Source of the DNA: Microbulbifer celer
Lineage (GTDB): Bacteria > Pseudomonadota > Gammaproteobacteria > Pseudomonadales > Cellvibrionaceae
Length of the DNA stretch: 64,000 nt
Assembly: GCF_020991125.1 (NCBI RefSeq)
Contig: NZ_CP087715.1
Location: 1,887,501-1,951,500, forward strand
Direction of reading: 5' to 3'
Numbering within the stretch: position 1 is the first letter of the stretch; each line of letters opens with the position of its first letter. A program made the translations under genes and the position numbers. Shown piece by piece: positions 34,097 through 44,446 of this stretch. A model generated the notes under the pieces. That model ran no database searches. It saw only the letters and a program-made list of their open reading frames with translations, and had not been told where the DNA came from.

Positions 34097-34873
34097 GTGA
34101 TTTTTTTAGAAAAGCACCATCGTGACATCGTCTTTTACAAGGCGCTGTGCAACCTCCGATCAGAGGCATCAAAAACTTACCTGAGTTTTCTCTGGTGGGT
34201 AATCGAGCCACTTTTTTCCATGGCAATTTACTATTTCATTTTTGGGGTAGTTTTTCAGCGCGGCACTGAGGACTTCGTTCCCTTTCTGTTAGTGGGGCTC
34301 GTAGTGTGGCAGTGGTTTGCTCAATGCGTCAGCCATTGTTCAGTGGCGATCAGTCAGGATCACGCGCTAATCAGCCAAGTGAACTTCCCGAAACTGGTAC
34401 TTCCATCAGTGAATGTCCTTATGGATACATTCAAATTCAGTATCATTTTCTGCATATTACTTATAGCTCTATGGTCGATGGGATACCCCCCTACCATGGC
34501 TTATATCTACTTACCCGTAATTCTAGGATTACAGCTGCTCTTGAATTATTCATGTGGCCTGGTTGCCAGCTCACTCATTCCATTCGTCCCCGACCTTTCC
34601 AATCTGATTCCACATCTCCTGCGCCTGGGGATGTATGGCTCTGGAATCCTTTACGCTGTTAGTTCGCTGCCCGAGAATATTCAAAGTGTGCTGGCATACA
34701 ACCCAATGGTCTGGATCATTCAGAGTTACCGCGATGTGCTGATGTACAATCAGGCTCCCGATGCCAGCAGCCTGGCCATCTACGCAGGCAGCGTCTTCTG
34801 CTTGTACGCATTGGCCCGACTTCTAATAAGCAGACTCAACCCGGTATTCGCCAGAGCGCTGATGCAACGATGA
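34097..34873 (+). CDS. ABC-2 polysaccharide exporter permease (Wzm/TagG/KpsM type)
   Basis: A 258-residue inner-membrane protein with about six hydrophobic segments (IEPLFSMAIYYFIFGVVF, FVPFLLVGLVVWQWFAQ, SIIFCILLIALWS, LPVILGLQLLLNYSCGLVAS, LLRLGMYGSGILYAVSSLP, LAIYAGSVFCLYALARLL). The N-terminal amphipathic RDIVFYKALCNLRSEASKTYLS and the motif YSFLWW-like FLWWVIEPLF are typical of O-antigen, capsule and teichoic-acid exporters. It starts at GTG 34097, four bases after the glycosyltransferase stop, and overlaps the ATPase gene by four bases. It should move the finished or undecaprenol/lipid-linked polymer across the inner membrane. Confidence 0.9.
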   Translation: MIFLEKHHRDIVFYKALCNLRSEASKTYLSFLWWVIEPLFSMAIYYFIFGVVFQRGTEDFVPFLLVGLVVWQWFAQCVSHCSVAISQDHALISQVNFPKLVLPSVNVLMDTFKFSIIFCILLIALWSMGYPPTMAYIYLPVILGLQLLLNYSCGLVASSLIPFVPDLSNLIPHLLRLGMYGSGILYAVSSLPENIQSVLAYNPMVWIIQSYRDVLMYNQAPDASSLAIYAGSVFCLYALARLLISRLNPVFARALMQR

Positions 34874-35571
34874 CTGATAGTAAGACTGTAATCAGCCTGA
34901 AAGATGTTCGAGTGACTTATCGCTCGGGGATCCCCTTTACACGGGCAATCAGCACCCATACGCCACTTAACGGCATTAGCTTTGACCTGAAGGAAGGTGA
35001 TTCTCTTGGTGTTATTGGTCGGAACGGCGCAGGAAAAAGCACGCTCTTGCGTTTACTGAACGGGATTATCAAGCCGGACGGCGGAGAAATAATCAACTAT
35101 GGATACCACACAACCCTACTCTCATTAACCGTTGGGTACGATCAAAACCTGACAGGACGTCAGAATGCCGTAATCAGCGGTATGATGATGGGCTTGGAAA
35201 AAAAGCACATTGTCAGCAAGCTGGATGAAATAAAAGAATTTTCGGAGCTGGGGAGCTTTTTCGACCAGCCTATCAAGAACTATTCCTCGGGCATGAAACA
35301 GCGACTGGGGTTTGGGGTCGCCATTCACTTGAAGTCCGACGTTCTTCTTATTGATGAGATACTTGCAGTTGGCGACACCAAGTTCAAGAAGAAGTCAGAA
35401 GCCGTTATGATTGAGAAAATTCAATCTGGCGATACAGTCGTATTGGTTTCACATTCGCCCTCTACTGTAAAACGTCTATGCAACAAAGCGGTATGGATAG
35501 AAAACGGGAAAGTGGCAAAGTACGGCGAAAGTATTGAAGTTGTAGATGCCTACGAAAAATTGCAGAGCTAA
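34870..35571 (+). CDS. ABC polysaccharide exporter ATPase (Wzt/TagH/KpsT type)
   Basis: A 233-residue ATP-binding subunit. Walker A is GRNGAGKST, the Q-loop region LSLTVGYDQNLTGRQN is the extended form typical of polysaccharide exporters, the signature is YSSGMKQRL, and Walker B is VLLIDEILAVGD, followed by the H-loop SHSPSTV. There is no C-terminal carbohydrate-binding extension as in O9a-type Wzt, so export is probably not gated by terminal-residue recognition. It overlaps the permease by four bases and the next gene by one base (TAATG). Confidence 0.93.
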   Translation: MTDSKTVISLKDVRVTYRSGIPFTRAISTHTPLNGISFDLKEGDSLGVIGRNGAGKSTLLRLLNGIIKPDGGEIINYGYHTTLLSLTVGYDQNLTGRQNAVISGMMMGLEKKHIVSKLDEIKEFSELGSFFDQPIKNYSSGMKQRLGFGVAIHLKSDVLLIDEILAVGDTKFKKKSEAVMIEKIQSGDTVVLVSHSPSTVKRLCNKAVWIENGKVAKYGESIEVVDAYEKLQS

Positions 35572-36812
35572 TGCGTATACTTATCTACGAAGCAATGCCG
35601 GATATCGTCCGAGCCGATGTGATCATCCGTATTGCCCGAGATTACGAAGCTCAAGGGCATACCGTATTTCTTTTGCTTGATGAAAATGTCCATCTCCTCA
35701 AAAGAAATGAAATCGTACAACCGCACATTGTAAACTGCCTGAACGTAATTCGGTCTAAGCTACCGAAAACCGGAATTCCTTTCTTTGCCACACCAATAAA
35801 CCGCCCACTAAGTAAGAAGTTCCTGGAATCCCCCTCAGATAAAATCCTTGAGGAGATAGCTGCGTACAAGTCCAACTTTCACGAAAAAGCGCTTAAGAAT
35901 TTTCAGCCGGACACCATTATCATCTGGAATGGGCTGATGGACTATCAGCGCAATTTCATTGGTCTCGCCAAGAACGTCAACCCAAGGCAAAAATTTTCAT
36001 TTTTAGAATCCGGCTGGTTCCCGCAGAAAAACACCTACTATTCGGATCCTGAAGGGGTAAATGCCGCAAGTTCACTATCCAGAGTATCTCCTCCTCCCCT
36101 GACCCCAGAGCAAACAGCCAAGATCAAGAAGTGGAAGGAGCAGTATCGCGACAGCTACGGAGCACCGAAAATCTGTGACAAGGGGTACTATTTCATTCCC
36201 CTGCAACTAGAAACCGATACCAACATCACCCTATTTTCCCCCTTCAAAAGTATGGAAGAGCTTTTGCTGTGGGTTCTCGAAAATACCGACTCTGAACGGA
36301 CAATTATTGTTCGACCACACCCGCTCAGCGACTGCGATCATAAAGAGTTCAGCAAGCTGAGTGATCGAATACAAGTCGATGGAAAAACCCCGCTTCAGAG
36401 TCTTCTCGCAGAATCCCACGCAGTGATTGGAATCAATAGCACCGTATTACTGGAAAGCCTGATTTTCGAAAAGCCGACCATCGCTTTGGGCCAAGGAGTT
36501 TTTCAGCATAGCAAAGCAATCTATTTGCAACCGCAGGATACCCCCATCCCTAGAAAACTGGATAGCACCTTCTCTCCAATAGAGAAGCAGGAGGCATTCC
36601 TGTACTACCTAAAGGAACGTCAGCGCCCTATTCCTACAGCCGGCGTCAGTATAAACCGCACACTACAGACAACCGGTATTGAAACCACTAAGTACAGTGA
36701 ACTAGAACAAGTTGTAAGCTCAGTAAAAATACGCGCAAGACAATATCTAAACTTATTGTCTTCCTGCTTACCGTGGCGTGGCGTGACAACTAGCCTCTCT
36801 AAAAGAGAATGA
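35571..36812 (+). CDS. Capsule polysaccharide synthesis protein, KpsS/KpsC-like
   Basis: A 413-residue protein with the marks of the Capsule_synth (PF05159) group: FLESGWFPQKNTYYSDPEGVNAASSL in the N-terminal half, then RPHPLSDCDH and VIGINSTVLLESLIFEKPTIALGQGVF. KpsS and KpsC in E. coli group 2 capsules are Kdo transferases that build the lipid-linked poly-Kdo primer. By analogy this protein may initiate or link the polymer, but divergent members of the family act differently, so the substrate is inferred. It ends the plus-strand export operon. Confidence 0.75.
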   Translation: MRILIYEAMPDIVRADVIIRIARDYEAQGHTVFLLLDENVHLLKRNEIVQPHIVNCLNVIRSKLPKTGIPFFATPINRPLSKKFLESPSDKILEEIAAYKSNFHEKALKNFQPDTIIIWNGLMDYQRNFIGLAKNVNPRQKFSFLESGWFPQKNTYYSDPEGVNAASSLSRVSPPPLTPEQTAKIKKWKEQYRDSYGAPKICDKGYYFIPLQLETDTNITLFSPFKSMEELLLWVLENTDSERTIIVRPHPLSDCDHKEFSKLSDRIQVDGKTPLQSLLAESHAVIGINSTVLLESLIFEKPTIALGQGVFQHSKAIYLQPQDTPIPRKLDSTFSPIEKQEAFLYYLKERQRPIPTAGVSINRTLQTTGIETTKYSELEQVVSSVKIRARQYLNLLSSCLPWRGVTTSLSKRE

Positions 36813-37710: not shown

Positions 37711-39189
37711 TCAAGAAACCCTTTTAAACAGCGTCTTAAAAACCACTCTAACATCAATCAGAATCTGAGCGGGTCTTTCTAGAATTTTAAATATGTTTCT
37801 CTTGACGAAATTCCTTTCGACCAAATACTTATACTCTGGATAGGTTGTTCTCACCACATTTCCTTGTGGACGAGCGCTGGCACACCCACTGAAAGCCTTA
37901 GATAGCTTCTGCGCCGAAGCAGCTGTCAACTTCTCTTCAACCAGGCAGCCGTGAATACAGTAGTTCATGAAATTTATAAATTTGTCATACTCGTTCAGAC
38001 TTAATTCAGCTGAATAATTCTCATCCAGAATATAGCTTGCAACATCTTCAGCCTGAGAGAATTCATAAGAGAAACCTTTCGAAGCGAAAAAGGCCGAACT
38101 ACTAACTATTGGCTTTTTTCCGAGAAAGGCTGCCTCTAGTGCAGATTGGGAGCATATTGAAACAAAGGCTATGCAGCCTTCTATCAACATACTTAAGTTC
38201 TCTGACTCTATTAGTTTAATTCTTTTTCTGTTTTTTTCTGAAAGCTCTCTAACAAAACCTTGAATTACTTCTTCTGTAAGAGACACCTCTCGGGATAGCT
38301 TTACCTTTTCCCACGGATGTACTTTGACAAAAACATCTAAATCCGTTTTATTTAGGAGATCTTTAATTATTGTTAGATAGATATCGGTACTTGCTACTTT
38401 CGGGTATCTACTATTCAAGAGAGAGTAATCATTTATCACCTGGCAAGCGATCAAAACATAACCGCAGCTATTCAGCTGACTAACCGCATGACTCGGCTGC
38501 TTTACATTCTTGTTACGCTGGGAAACATTAGATAGATAACCTGAGGATACTTTCCATTTGGCGGCATCAACAATATCGGCTTTTTCCCTGAAAAATTTGA
38601 CATCTGATTTGTTTGGCAACGGAGAATACCGGTTTTCGAGGTAGTAATGCGCCCCTGTAAAGAAGCTTTCCACTAACAGCGGCTCGGTCGGCAGTAGCTC
38701 ACAGCACTTGGTCAAGGCTCTTGTTGAAATACTTGCCCCAGAAAAAATAATGACGTAACGGTATTTGTCCGTCGAAGATAAATTCATCCATAAATCGATC
38801 CAATACATCGCAAGAGCGTAAGACGTAATCAGCAATGAATGATGGTTCTTGTACACAAATCTTATGAGATCTTCAACATTTAGATACTTATAACTTGACA
38901 GGCCGTCAAAGATTAATTCATCAAGAAGCTCGTATTCAACGACATTATTTACATTTATACCGTTGCATTCAAAGTCAACCATCTCATCTTCATCGAGATC
39001 TCTCAGACTGTCGATGTACGGAGCCAGCTCTTCCCGCTGAATACAATCCCTAATGCGTACATTTCTTAAGTTTTTAGATTGAGAAAATTCTTTATAGCGG
39101 ATCTGACATTTATCCAGGTATTCAAATAAGCTGGAAAAATTCTTTCTGTGAATATGAACCGGATCCGAGATTAAAATATCTGCTTTCAT
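37711..39189 (-). CDS. Capsule-synthesis-like protein, AT-rich gene
   Basis: About 492 residues starting at ATG 39189 (MKADILISDPVHIHRKNF). The N-terminal half is unfamiliar; the C-terminal half has FVKVHPWEKV and SICSQSALEAAFLGKKPIVSSSAF, the nucleotide-sugar-like region seen in capsule-synthesis and CDP-glycerol transferase proteins. It is probably a glycosyl- or phosphotransferase of the surface polymer, but the class is uncertain. The start lies inside the previous gene, an overlap of 68 bp. Codon use is clearly AT-rich compared with the flanks of the island. Confidence 0.65.
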   Translation of the reverse strand: MKADILISDPVHIHRKNFSSLFEYLDKCQIRYKEFSQSKNLRNVRIRDCIQREELAPYIDSLRDLDEDEMVDFECNGINVNNVVEYELLDELIFDGLSSYKYLNVEDLIRFVYKNHHSLLITSYALAMYWIDLWMNLSSTDKYRYVIIFSGASISTRALTKCCELLPTEPLLVESFFTGAHYYLENRYSPLPNKSDVKFFREKADIVDAAKWKVSSGYLSNVSQRNKNVKQPSHAVSQLNSCGYVLIACQVINDYSLLNSRYPKVASTDIYLTIIKDLLNKTDLDVFVKVHPWEKVKLSREVSLTEEVIQGFVRELSEKNRKRIKLIESENLSMLIEGCIAFVSICSQSALEAAFLGKKPIVSSSAFFASKGFSYEFSQAEDVASYILDENYSAELSLNEYDKFINFMNYCIHGCLVEEKLTAASAQKLSKAFSGCASARPQGNVVRTTYPEYKYLVERNFVKRNIFKILERPAQILIDVRVVFKTLFKRVS

Positions 39190-40099
39190 TTTTTTCAACA
39201 ACCGCTTGATAAACCGAGTGATAATTGCTTACAACATCCTGCCACGACAACACAGAAGTAAAGGAAAGTGATTTTTTTAAGGCGAAAAAGTCAGATATAT
39301 CCTCGGCAGCAACATCCAGATCCTGATCAATGAACAGACCGTTTTCTCCAAGGGACGGCCGAACATAGTCAACAGCCATACCAACACGGGTCGAGAAGAT
39401 AGGTGTTTGAGTGTACACAGCTTCAGGTATACAGGCGGGTCCACCTTCAAAGTTCGAAAGTATCAACAGGGCGTCAATTCTGGCATAGGCATCTGGCATA
39501 AGGCGGTAGGGTAAAAACTCATAGCAGTCGACCTCAAAGCCCATTGACTCGAGTTTTTTGGCATCAACCAAACGATCCTTCCCCACGAGAAAAAAGCGGA
39601 AACGTTCGGGAGGCAAGCGCTTCGCAATTTCATACAACCGAAACTCGCCTTTCACTCCCCGGCCATAGCGGCGGGAAAAGAACCCTAAAGTTACCTTTTC
39701 ATCCCGCAAGCGAACCCGAACCTTGTCATTGAATACCTCGGTATTAATACCATGTGGAATTACAACAGTATTGTCGATTTGGTGCCGACTACTTAGAAGC
39801 CTTTCTTGCTCGGAGTTTAAGCACACCACAGCAGCAGAGTCACGATAAGCCGCGATGAACTGCTCCAGGTTAAGCCACCCATCATGATCTTTCGGGTCGT
39901 GATGTACCGTGCAGACAGAGTTTTGCGGGATAGATTTTGAGATATGAGGGCGATGATGATGATACACATCACACCCTTCGATGGGATCAGGAGAGACGAA
40001 ATGCTCTACAGAAGGCGGCGCGTATTTCTTGAAGTATCCAATAAAGGCGTCGAATATTGAGCTTTGGACTGAATTGCCCATCACATGGTTGATCTTCAT
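39122..40099 (-). CDS. Glycosyltransferase family 4 (GT-B)
   Basis: A 325-residue GT-B enzyme: MKINHVMGNSVQSS at the start, an Asp/His-rich acceptor half (YHHHRPH), VVIPHGINTEVFN in the linker, then LGFFSRRYGRGVKGEF and LLILSNFEGGPACIPEAVYTQTPIF. The E-x7-E position is degenerate (EGGPACIPE). It acts in the cytoplasm on an unknown acceptor. It precedes the capsule-synthesis-like gene on the same strand, with which its 3' end overlaps. A 6-bp inverted repeat lies just upstream of the start. Confidence 0.85.
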   Translation of the reverse strand: MKINHVMGNSVQSSIFDAFIGYFKKYAPPSVEHFVSPDPIEGCDVYHHHRPHISKSIPQNSVCTVHHDPKDHDGWLNLEQFIAAYRDSAAVVCLNSEQERLLSSRHQIDNTVVIPHGINTEVFNDKVRVRLRDEKVTLGFFSRRYGRGVKGEFRLYEIAKRLPPERFRFFLVGKDRLVDAKKLESMGFEVDCYEFLPYRLMPDAYARIDALLILSNFEGGPACIPEAVYTQTPIFSTRVGMAVDYVRPSLGENGLFIDQDLDVAAEDISDFFALKKSLSFTSVLSWQDVVSNYHSVYQAVVEKNESRYFNLGSGSYSQKEFFQLI

Positions 40100-40113
40100 G
40101 CTTCGTCGAAAAT

Positions 40114-40130
40114 GTAATGTATGTCATTAC
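40114..40130 (-). promoter_or_regulatory. Small inverted repeat before the 40.1-kb glycosyltransferase
   Basis: GTAATG and CATTAC form a perfect 6-bp inverted repeat with a 5-base spacer, 15 bases before the ATG at 40099. It may be an operator or leader hairpin. The remaining gene-free stretch to 40509 is AT-rich; I see no reliable gene, promoter or repeat in it. Confidence 0.3.
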
Positions 40131-40509
40131 CTTATACTAACCAATCATGAAAAACTGATGACGGAACGATTACTATATCATTACTCGGCTCGTTGGACTT
40201 AGATATGAATTAAGTGAACCAAGCCGAGAATAATGTATTAGAAAATTAAATTAGTATAGCTGCCTCCTCCTGTGTGGATTACCTTCTGAAAGGTTCAGAC
40301 GACAGCTACCCTAACATATAGAGACCGCCTGAGAGCCGTGCTTGTGCTAAAGGTGGGGAAAGCTGATTGCTTACTTAACCTACCAAGAATATATTCCACC
40401 TGGGCATGGAGGCCCCCCAAAAATTTTAGGACGCTGTGGATTCAAAGTTTCTGTCAGGCTATAGTGGCAGTCTGCTCTGGGCTAAATACTTCCATCATTG
40501 TTAGCACCC

Positions 40510-41802
40510 TCAAATATGCTTTGTGATCTCGGTAAAAAGATCAGAAGGAGTAAGCGTCTTCCATTCACTCATAGAAAAGCCAACTTCAGGTGACCTACTC
40601 AAAGCAGTCTCGGTGTAACCCTCATTTGCGCCCCCCCCCTCATCATCATCAGAAAGAAATATATATGAAGAAGGTTTACCCACGACATACTCTAAATCAT
40701 GCTTTTGCACAACTAATATCGTTGCAGGAGTTTTACTAAACAAGGCCTCACTAGCAATAGCGGAGACATCGCAAATAACGGACTTGTAACGAGAAAGATT
40801 CAGTGTTGAGGCAATTTTTACATTGACACGCGAAAGATTTTTATCAAACTTAATCCTCCGTGCCGTATAATGTCTTTCAACTACCGACCCTTCTTGCAAT
40901 TCAAGACTTATATCAATACTAGGAAATTGAGATTGCAAATACTCCAAGAGGGAATCCAATTTCTCATACATAGACCGGTCTCTAATACCGGTAGATGGAT
41001 GGGGCCTAATTATCAGTGACTCAGGATTTTCAGCCTGCACAATCTCCTTCAATGCCGCCTTTGTCTTTTCGACTGGTAAGCTGGAATACTTTTCTCCATC
41101 TAACACACCTTCCCAAGTCGGAGCATAAAGTAATCCGCTGCTTAAAGCATCATTATTTTCTCCTGAATGAATTGCATATGGCATACCGATTTTTAAACAC
41201 TTATTTTTTGCATCTTGTTCGTGCAAAACTCCCGAGTTAGCAAGCTTGGCTACAGACCTCGGCCCCGCTACCAACAAATAATCATACATTCGAAATAACG
41301 GGTGTTCACAGGCCTTCTTCTCACTTTGCCCATGCCCCACAAAGACATGCGTTGCAGAGCGATTCAACATCAGAGCACAATTACTAATTGAGTTAAACAC
41401 ATAAAATATGCGACTTACATTTATTGGTGCCAGCTCACTAACAAAGTTTACTCCACAGAACGACACACCCATTTCGCGCAACTTCGACGAATAAAGACGA
41501 CGGGATCTCTTATATCGAATATATACAACAGCAACCTTTTTTACATCAAAAAACCCGCAATCAAACCAACGCTGAACTTGAAATACACTACTCTCGTCTT
41601 CATTGTCCACAAAAACGATATTTTCATACCGTTTACATAGATTTTCCAACTGAACTTTCGCGCTCACTCCGAATACGCGCCCTGTGAAATATCTCCCCTT
41701 GTCGCAAACGAGCGCAAAATCCGTTATATGCAGCCTTCTTGCTATAAACCAGGCAACCGAACCCAAATAATTGATAAGCCGTCTTGCAAAATAACCTTTC
41801 AC
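40510..41802 (-). CDS. CDP-glycerol glycerophosphotransferase-like protein
   Basis: A 430-residue protein of the Glyphos_transf type (PF04464-like). Marks are FVGHGQSEKKA (the GHG/HGT donor-site histidine), LLYAPTWEG, SLIIRPHPSTG and VICDVSAIASEALFSKTP near the C terminus. TagB/TagF relatives transfer glycerol-phosphate from CDP-glycerol onto a polymer or primer. An in-frame run of nine G sits at codon ~388; shifted frames stop within about a dozen codons and would remove the last ~40 residues. The gene follows the bifunctional TagF-like gene by 16 bp on the same strand. Confidence 0.75.
   Translation of the reverse strand: MKGYFARRLINYLGSVAWFIARRLHITDFALVCDKGRYFTGRVFGVSAKVQLENLCKRYENIVFVDNEDESSVFQVQRWFDCGFFDVKKVAVVYIRYKRSRRLYSSKLREMGVSFCGVNFVSELAPINVSRIFYVFNSISNCALMLNRSATHVFVGHGQSEKKACEHPLFRMYDYLLVAGPRSVAKLANSGVLHEQDAKNKCLKIGMPYAIHSGENNDALSSGLLYAPTWEGVLDGEKYSSLPVEKTKAALKEIVQAENPESLIIRPHPSTGIRDRSMYEKLDSLLEYLQSQFPSIDISLELQEGSVVERHYTARRIKFDKNLSRVNVKIASTLNLSRYKSVICDVSAIASEALFSKTPATILVVQKHDLEYVVGKPSSYIFLSDDDEGGGANEGYTETALSRSPEVGFSMSEWKTLTPSDLFTEITKHI
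40631..40639 (-). repeat. G9 homopolymer inside the glycerophosphotransferase gene
   Basis: Nine consecutive C on the plus strand are nine G in the coding strand (GAG GGG GGG GGC), immediately after three GAT codons. One extra G leads to CGC AAA TGA and stop; one lost G reaches TGA about eleven codons later. This is the layout of a slipped-strand contingency switch. Confidence 0.9.
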
Positions 41803-41818
41803 CTAAATAACCTATACT

Positions 41819-44020
41819 TTAAAAAATTCTCTCTATTAAGTTTCTCGAGGAATTCCCATCATCCATTGATGTGTATTTTTTTATAAGTGACTCGAGCTCT
41901 AGATTTCCGACGTTATTAGCGCTCTTAAACTGGTTGATTTTCGACTCCAGCTCCTCCTGAGTTTCACAGTAAAACTCTCCAAACTCTTCTTGCAAATTTA
42001 AATAGATCCCTCTATATTCCTGATACTCTATGAAATCGTAACAATACAAAAACACTTGCCTGCCTAAATTCATATAATCAAATACCGAAGAGGAGTAATC
42101 TGACACTAGAATATCCGAGGCAATATACAAATCTTCTACGATTGGATATTTGTCGGCAGTCAGCACTCTGTCTTTCAGGTCAGTTCGAAGCTCCTGAACT
42201 TTCTTCTTAAAATAGTGAGAGCGCACAATCAGATATGAATTCTCCCCTGCAGCACAAAGCAAACTGTCCACTTCTAAACTGGGCACGTGATTACGATCGT
42301 AGTCACGAAATGTAGGCATATACAAAATGACGAAGGCGTCCGAAGGAATACCCAAGCTCTCCCGAACTGCTATACATTCCTCAAAAGAAGAGTTTTTCAA
42401 GCGATCATTTCGCGGATAACCAATCTCTAGAAGTTGGTAATTAAACGGGAACGCTCCGCGCCATATTTCACTAGAATAGGTGTTCGACGAAATTACATAA
42501 TCCCATCTTGCGCACCTATGAGCAAACAACTTGGGGGACATATCATTTGCTTTCGATTCGCGAATGAGGTCATACCCCATTTTCTTAATAGGAGTACCGT
42601 GTTTAGTTTGTATATGTATCTGCCCCTGTCGTTTTATTAAAAAATTGGGGAAATTGGCATTATTGATGAAATACTTAGCTACCGCCATAGTGTAGTAATA
42701 CTTTAGAGAGTTCGGACTAATAACTTGATAACCCGGCACAATTTCCGCACCATTCTTCACAATCCAATATTGCTCAATATCGGGGCGCAGTTGCATTAGC
42801 TCGTCTGAAATAGCTTTTGGGTTACATGCTATTTGGCTATCCCAATAAGCAGAAAAAACGGCCACATTCGTTTTGATAGGCAACCTAATGAAAACATACT
42901 GATATAACTTTGGATAAAGAAATTTCTTGATTCGTGATTCCTGTTTTTTAACCCACGAAGTCACACGTGTCTTAGTCGACACCGCCTTCCTCACTAAAGG
43001 CCTTACTTTTTTAAACAACCAGAGAAATCCGGAGCTTCCCCGCATAAGGACTGGGTATCTCCAACGTAACCTTGGATCTCTTGAAAAGTCAAAATCACTT
43101 AAATCATATCGCAGTGCATTCGCGTGTCTAATGATTTCTTCTCTTGCCTGTAGTGCAAATGTAGTCCGTAAATGCTGAGGAAGCCTATCTACCCTCTCAA
43201 ACGACATGTTTACAATGTGTTCTACGAAGCGGAAAAAGCACTCCCTTCTACACTCCTCATTTAAAATCGAACCCTCAGACTCAACCTGTCTTGAAAATAG
43301 TTCAGCATAGCGCTCGAATATCTCAAAGTGCTTATCAGTTGAAGAGTTAAGAATTGAGCCTGGGCGCTGGTAATAATAGTAGCCACAATAGTTTTCTAAA
43401 GTAATCTTTGCTTTTAATGACAGAATAAAGTAAGTCCAAGGTATATCCTCATAATATCCCTCTCCAAACGCAATACCTTCACGGCGAATAAAATCAAGTC
43501 TATAAAGCTTATTCCATGCAACATTCAAGTTCTTGAAAATCTCAATCCGATCAGTATTTGTTAGCTGCTTATCAGAGTAACTTTCAAATAAGTCTGTTCG
43601 CCAATTCATTCGAGTATAGCCGGATGGCCAAACCCGCTTATGGTTAAAAATGACAACATCAGAACTGTGCTTTTGCGCATTGAGCAACGAGCGCTGAATA
43701 AGATCTGACTCAATCCAATCGTCACTATCAACAAACAGAATATAGCTTCCAGAAGCTGCGTCAATTCCAGTGTTTCGCGCGGCCCCCAACCCTTTATTCT
43801 GTTTGTGTGTGATAACTTTAAAAGTTACGTCGCCATTCTTCTTCGCAACTTCGTGACAAATAGCAGCGCTATTATCAGTTGAACAGTCATCAACAATAAT
43901 TATCTCTAAGTTCTTATAGCTTTGAGCAACAATCGAATTCAAACACTTTCGAACTTGCCCCTGAACATTATATACAGGAACAACAACACTCACGACAAAA
44001 TCGTTCTTTTTCATAATCAT
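41819..44020 (-). CDS. GT2 glycosyltransferase fused to CDP-glycerol glycerophosphotransferase
   Basis: A 733-residue two-domain protein. Residues ~8-250 are a GT-A family 2 domain (VSVVVPVYNVQGQV, VDDCSTDNS, the DSDDW metal-binding motif). Residues ~370-730 are a TagF/Glyphos_transf domain with IQTKHGTPIKKMGYD, YMPTFRDY and DILVSDYSSSVFDYMNLGRQVFLY. The fusion resembles polymerases of glycerol-phosphate-sugar capsules, in which one domain adds a sugar and the other glycerol phosphate (known for Actinobacillus and Neisseria capsule polymerases). ATG at 44020 or 44014 is possible. tagD lies 27 bp upstream and would supply the donor. Confidence 0.88.
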   Translation of the reverse strand: MIMKKNDFVVSVVVPVYNVQGQVRKCLNSIVAQSYKNLEIIIVDDCSTDNSAAICHEVAKKNGDVTFKVITHKQNKGLGAARNTGIDAASGSYILFVDSDDWIESDLIQRSLLNAQKHSSDVVIFNHKRVWPSGYTRMNWRTDLFESYSDKQLTNTDRIEIFKNLNVAWNKLYRLDFIRREGIAFGEGYYEDIPWTYFILSLKAKITLENYCGYYYYQRPGSILNSSTDKHFEIFERYAELFSRQVESEGSILNEECRRECFFRFVEHIVNMSFERVDRLPQHLRTTFALQAREEIIRHANALRYDLSDFDFSRDPRLRWRYPVLMRGSSGFLWLFKKVRPLVRKAVSTKTRVTSWVKKQESRIKKFLYPKLYQYVFIRLPIKTNVAVFSAYWDSQIACNPKAISDELMQLRPDIEQYWIVKNGAEIVPGYQVISPNSLKYYYTMAVAKYFINNANFPNFLIKRQGQIHIQTKHGTPIKKMGYDLIRESKANDMSPKLFAHRCARWDYVISSNTYSSEIWRGAFPFNYQLLEIGYPRNDRLKNSSFEECIAVRESLGIPSDAFVILYMPTFRDYDRNHVPSLEVDSLLCAAGENSYLIVRSHYFKKKVQELRTDLKDRVLTADKYPIVEDLYIASDILVSDYSSSVFDYMNLGRQVFLYCYDFIEYQEYRGIYLNLQEEFGEFYCETQEELESKINQFKSANNVGNLELESLIKKYTSMDDGNSSRNLIERIF

Positions 44021-44047: not shown

Positions 44048-44446
44048 TCAGTTGGCAGCGGTTGATCTAACTACATCGATTATCTCAGATGTTGAAATGC
44101 CCTCAGTTCTCGGAAAATATTGAATTTTGCAGAGATTTGAAAACTGATCAAATCGACCTCTCCAGTCATCCCCCATTACCAATATATCGGCGTTAAATTG
44201 AGTGATGTATTCACCTTTTAGCTCTAACGATTCCTCCAAGAAAACTTCATCGACACAGTGGAGTGACTCCACAATTTTCAACCGGTCATCCTGGCTATAA
44301 ATAGGGGGACGCCCCTTTTTGCTGATGTTTAGCGCGTCTGAAGATACACCTACAATTAAGTGATCTCCCAGCTCTTTTGCTCGCTCCAGAATGTTTACAT
44401 GCCCAATATGGAAAACATCAAACGTTCCAAAAGTGATGACTTTCAT
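44048..44446 (-). CDS. tagD: Glycerol-3-phosphate cytidylyltransferase
   Basis: A 132-residue cytidylyltransferase that makes CDP-glycerol from CTP and glycerol 3-phosphate. The nucleotidyltransferase motif is GTFDVFHIGHVNIL (residues ~7-20), and RTEGIST near residue 114 is the second signature. Length and motifs match TagD of Gram-positive wall teichoic acid synthesis. It lies just upstream of the TagF-like fusion and 44 bp downstream of nadK, on the same strand. It is the strongest single piece of evidence that the polymer made here contains glycerol phosphate. Confidence 0.9.
   Translation of the reverse strand: MKVITFGTFDVFHIGHVNILERAKELGDHLIVGVSSDALNISKKGRPPIYSQDDRLKIVESLHCVDEVFLEESLELKGEYITQFNADILVMGDDWRGRFDQFSNLCKIQYFPRTEGISTSEIIDVVRSTAAN

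Follow-up and report, generated by a model that had tools for sequence, protein, structure and literature searches.

The window analysed here is a 64,000-nucleotide stretch of DNA, positions 1,887,501–1,951,500 of a single-contig 4.35-Mb Microbulbifer genome (Microbulbifer celer). It holds a gene cluster that, from the families of its products, is predicted to serve a surface polymer, and that includes an ABC transporter, glycosyltransferases, a CDP-glycerol synthesis gene and a two-domain polymerase (Table 1). Within it lies a gene with nine consecutive G (G9) in its coding frame, late in its length, hereafter the tract gene. Its earlier description as a surface-polymer gene agrees with this setting, and the cluster content, judged by family, points to a surface function facing host or phage, as at contingency loci. 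The neighbouring protein, with its GT2 + Glyphos_transf layout, matches the GT-A/TagF-like polymerases of group 2 capsules in Gram-negative bacteria (PMC5974469). Its Glyphos_transf family, PF04464, also includes CpsA and TagB, which are priming transferases (PMC11666461). Downstream of the tract gene, about 410 bp (window 40100–40510, 42% GC) separate it from the following glycosyltransferase gene of the cluster; this gap is without a clear gene, and a search there for a promoter or terminator found neither.

Table 1. Features of the tract gene and its cluster (window coordinates).
Feature	Position	Strand	Basis
Putative glycosyl- or glycerophosphotransferase of 430 aa, GT-B/TagF-like, with the G9	40510..41802	-	ORF; homologs; AlphaFold2; Foldseek
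G9 homopolymer (C9 on + strand), codons 388–391	40631..40639	-	Sequence and frame computation
3' tail removed by a frameshift: loop of low model confidence followed by predicted helices 412–416 and 419–429	40510..40630	-	AlphaFold2; match to homolog L087
Two-domain protein, GT2 + Glyphos_transf, with the architecture of GT-A/TagF-like capsule polymerases	41819..44020	-	Pfam PF00535, PF04464
Glycerol-3-phosphate cytidylyltransferase-like protein (CDP-glycerol supply)	44048..44446	-	TIGR01518, E 2e-38, below equivalog cut-off
GT4 glycosyltransferase	39122-40099	-	Pfam
Capsule_synth protein	37711-39201	-	Pfam
ABC-2 permease, ABC ATPase, Capsule_synth/KpsS-like protein	34097..36812	+	Pfam, NCBIfam

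A putative TagF-like transferase without close relatives

The tract gene starts with GTG and has a GC content of 41%. Its product has no Pfam or NCBIfam match, PF04464 being absent at an E value of 0.1. A solved structure was sought by sequence profile and none was found. The AlphaFold2 model (pLDDT 80, pTM 0.80) was compared with known structures using Foldseek, which ranked PseG first and also returned TagF, TarL, CapG and UDP-GlcNAc 2-epimerases, all with modest TM-scores; the TagF match has an E value of 3.9e-6, yet a TM-score of only 0.35–0.39. Because 7 of the 19 aligned members of its family match PF04464, we place the protein as a remote relative of the glycerophosphotransferases. It may resemble the CDP-glycerol glycerophosphotransferases TagF, TagB and CpsA (PF04464; PMC11666461, PMC5974469) in a GT-B-like fold; TagF and TarL are among its best structural matches, and its gene lies beside a GT2–Glyphos_transf polymerase gene and a CDP-glycerol synthesis gene. 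Unlike them, it lacks a PF04464 hit of its own, and its similarity to TagF stays within the low TM range given above. On sequence and model together, it is thus predicted to be a TagF-like GT-B transferase, remotely related to TagF and CpsA, with a putative substrate. The term 'glycerophosphotransferase-like' used in the original prediction best fits the adjacent two-domain protein (Glyphos_transf, E 1.9e-98).

Homologs identified by an alignment scan come from Pasteurellaceae, Ignatzschineria, Acinetobacter, Halomonas and actinobacteria, and all are distant (about 23–38% identity). A DNA search of the 47 other genus genomes gave zero matches, and a scan of genome contigs with the single protein matched nothing. 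One homolog, from Haemophilus influenzae HI-5290 (L088, 3965–4795), ends early at 277 aa with a tail unlike that of its relatives, and looks like a broken copy.

Frameshift products and the C-terminal tail

The plus strand at window positions 40631–40639 reads CCCCCCCCC, which is G9 on the coding (minus) strand of the ORF running from 41802 to 40510. The run begins with the last base of codon 388, in GAG GGG GGG GGC (Glu-Gly-Gly-Gly, or E-G-G-G, residues 388–391), about 90% of the way along the gene. By frame computation, the nine-G allele encodes the full-length 430-aa frame, one additional G gives a 393-aa product ending in EGGGRK, and the loss of one G gives a 400-aa product ending in EGGAQMRVTPRLL. 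Both shifted frames stop within 2–10 codons of the run. An in-frame G9, a stop three codons on after one added G and a stop about eleven codons later after one removed had all been proposed from the sequence, and all agree with the computed frames. The locus therefore has the basic form of a contingency locus, a homopolymer in the coding frame at which a change of one unit truncates the protein.

In the AlphaFold2 model, residues 387–404, which hold the Gly stretch encoded by the G9, form an unstructured loop (pLDDT <50), whereas residues 411–430 are modelled with confidence (pLDDT 89–94) as two helices. The segment EWKTLTPSDLFTEITKHI, within the 40 residues that follow the tract, lines up with the terminal DWKKLTQENIFKEVVKLI of L087, a homolog from Campylobacteraceae, and this match is significant in the G9 frame only (shuffle p 0.0005, against about 0.8 in the other two frames). 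A second homolog (L080) shows a weak tail match (p 0.014), and six others that were compared have no significant tail similarity. The case for conservation of the tail thus comes mostly from one homolog, together with the predicted fold. From the G9-frame match and the helices, it follows that nine is the coding length and that slippage would take away a structured part of the C terminus. This part is probably functional, and a frameshift at the G9 would probably inactivate the enzyme.

Frequency and conservation of G9 runs

The presence of a long G run does not by itself mark a surface gene as switching; background counts, synonymous shuffles and orthologs have to be checked first. When the window is shuffled with its dinucleotides kept, 0.74 G9 runs are expected, and at least one occurs in 44 of 100 shuffles. 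The whole genome has 15 tracts of G≥9, corresponding to 26 overlapping 9-mer matches, against 9–19 expected from Markov models of order 2–6; the excess is due to longer, mostly noncoding tracts. The models and the ORF shuffles were drawn from an 864-kb sample of the genome with 570 ORFs. In these ORFs, G/C runs of at least 7 number 28, compared with about 65 expected from synonymous shuffling within genes, and runs of at least 9 number 2, compared with 4.1. The shortfall in runs of at least 7 means that the Microbulbifer celer genome avoids long G/C runs inside genes. For the tract gene, at 41% GC, the probability of a G9 is about 0–0.07 by Markov simulation (0–0.03 if the tract is shortened in training), and 0.07 by synonymous shuffling of the gene alone. 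The run is thus mildly unusual locally, yet not once the genome-wide look is allowed for.

G9 runs are present in 47 of the 48 genus genomes, most of which have similar counts. Three genomes, G023, G041 and G013, stand apart with 667, 314 and 95 overlapping G9 matches, respectively, against fewer than 80 in all others. Some of the G tracts in G041 lie less than 70 bases from contig ends, which suggests that these are assembly artefacts; others are internal.

None of 26 loci homologous to the tract gene, all from distant relatives, has a G/C run longer than 6, and no close ortholog was found among the 48 genus genomes. Comparing run length in relatives, as had been proposed earlier, thus gave no sign that the tract is kept among the distant homologs. 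A family search identified four further kinds of gene with a G9 or C9 in this genome, encoding a CheA-type protein (CheW + HATPase_c), an NADH-quinone oxidoreductase/antiporter, an O-antigen ligase (Wzy_C) and an FG-GAP protein. In cheA, the G9 is broken in all 7 of the closest CheA relatives, mostly by synonymous change, and the protein motif (DDGGGL/DDGAGL) is kept; on sequence comparison, this is the pattern expected of drift. The O-antigen ligase gene (L187, G000:C1:824395-825186, same genome) has its G9 at an EWGG motif. The same codons carry it in one of the four relatives read (L191, G041:C16:47772-48554, 50% identity), from another Microbulbifer genome, G041, that is rich in G runs overall. 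The ligase gene adds a further surface-gene candidate for a mutable site and is the one counter-example to the drift picture.

Frames for MutS (886 aa) and MutL (654 aa) are present in the genome. MutS and MutL usually keep slip rates at G9 runs low.

Incidental run or switch

We consider it likely that the G9 is an incidental run and a modest frameshift hot spot, with no selected switch. It would have arisen through ordinary codon choice at the E-G-G-G stretch, and would encode part of a Gly-rich unstructured loop leading from the last core strand to the C-terminal helix of the TagF-like transferase. As with runs of 9 bases in general, indels probably make the site a modest hot spot; a slip would cut about 30–37 residues and probably disable the enzyme, and the slip rate would be low, judging from the presence of MutS and MutL. 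The near-background count of G9 runs, their depletion in ORFs, the lack of conservation, the broken cheA run, the loop of pLDDT <50 and the mismatch-repair genes favour this account. Against it stand the local probability of about 0–0.07, the 26 matches where 9–19 are expected, and the recurrence of the O-antigen ligase G9 in G041.

A genuine contingency locus, as originally predicted, appears unlikely. Slipped-strand mispairing at the G9 would then alternate between a full-length form (nine) and truncated forms (eight or ten), giving a mixed surface polymer, for example against phages. The surface-polymer setting and the probably functional tail would suit this role, and there are precedents. 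In Vibrio cholerae O1, tracts of A9 in manA and A8 in wbeL give phage-selected O-antigen variants. These have been isolated, are phage-resistant and have also turned up among natural isolates, and all 37 strains keep the wbeL tract (PMC3441752). As there, the Microbulbifer tract is a run of 8–9 bases inside a surface-polymer biosynthesis gene in which a one-base slip truncates the enzyme; it differs in consisting of G instead of A, in lying at 90% of the gene and in being known from one genome sequence alone. Campylobacter has abundant poly-G/C tracts, its main form of simple repeat (PMC6321876, PMC8355987), and the run studied here, a poly-G in a surface-polysaccharide gene, exceeds the cut-off of at least 7 G/C used in surveys of that genus (PMC6321876). 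Unlike in Campylobacter, however, long G/C runs are depleted in the ORFs of the present genome, and MutS and MutL are present. A parallel in position is Helicobacter canadensis, for which phase variation has been proposed at poly-G tracts near the 3' end, where a slip alters the C terminus only; loss of a C-terminal helix has been proposed for rfbB. The H. canadensis tracts have at least ten G and varied among the reads (PMC2823697), whereas the Microbulbifer run is a G9 in an assembled sequence.

Further evidence also weighs against a switch at this site: the run is near or slightly above background in frequency, such runs are fewer in ORFs than after shuffling, it is absent from all homologs seen, it lies late in the gene, and mismatch repair is present. 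A literature search found no report of phase variation in Microbulbifer. Were the G9 to switch, it would bring homopolymer phase variation to a free-living marine genus in which the search found none, and would connect heterogeneity of the surface polymer with phage pressure. A variant of this idea, in which the short G9 runs in Microbulbifer surface-polymer genes (the tract transferase and the O-antigen ligase) are low-rate contingency loci limited by mismatch repair, probably for phage escape, strikes us as quite improbable. Because 8–9-base O-antigen tracts in V. cholerae can still yield phage-selected variants (PMC3441752), the site may well, by analogy, act as a mutational hot spot when under phage pressure.

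An error of sequencing or assembly in the homopolymer, with a true length other than nine and a truncated gene, or a gene already in decay, is very improbable. G9 runs are error-prone on some sequencing platforms, and the tract gene lacks close homologs and precedes the 410-bp stretch without a clear gene; but the frame after the tract matches L087 where the other two frames do not, and the sequence that follows folds into a confident helix in the AlphaFold2 model. Transcriptional or ribosomal slippage, which long homopolymers can induce in general and which would yield a fixed minority of truncated protein from unchanged DNA, is extremely improbable here, with both shifted frames ending too soon to give a useful second product and the G9 not conserved.

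Beyond the run in the tract gene and the families named above, the G9/C9 tracts of the genome lie between genes, at the starts of genes or within ORFs that are unclear. A C9 tract at G000:C1:2107969-2107977 lies in what looks by eye like a gene for an MscS-like channel, with a frame that seems broken downstream. Two G10 tracts, at G000:C1:1430193-1430202 and 1818775-1818784, directly adjoin start codons or lie a short way upstream of them (ORFs in L011 and L016); a change in length there could alter translation or transcription.
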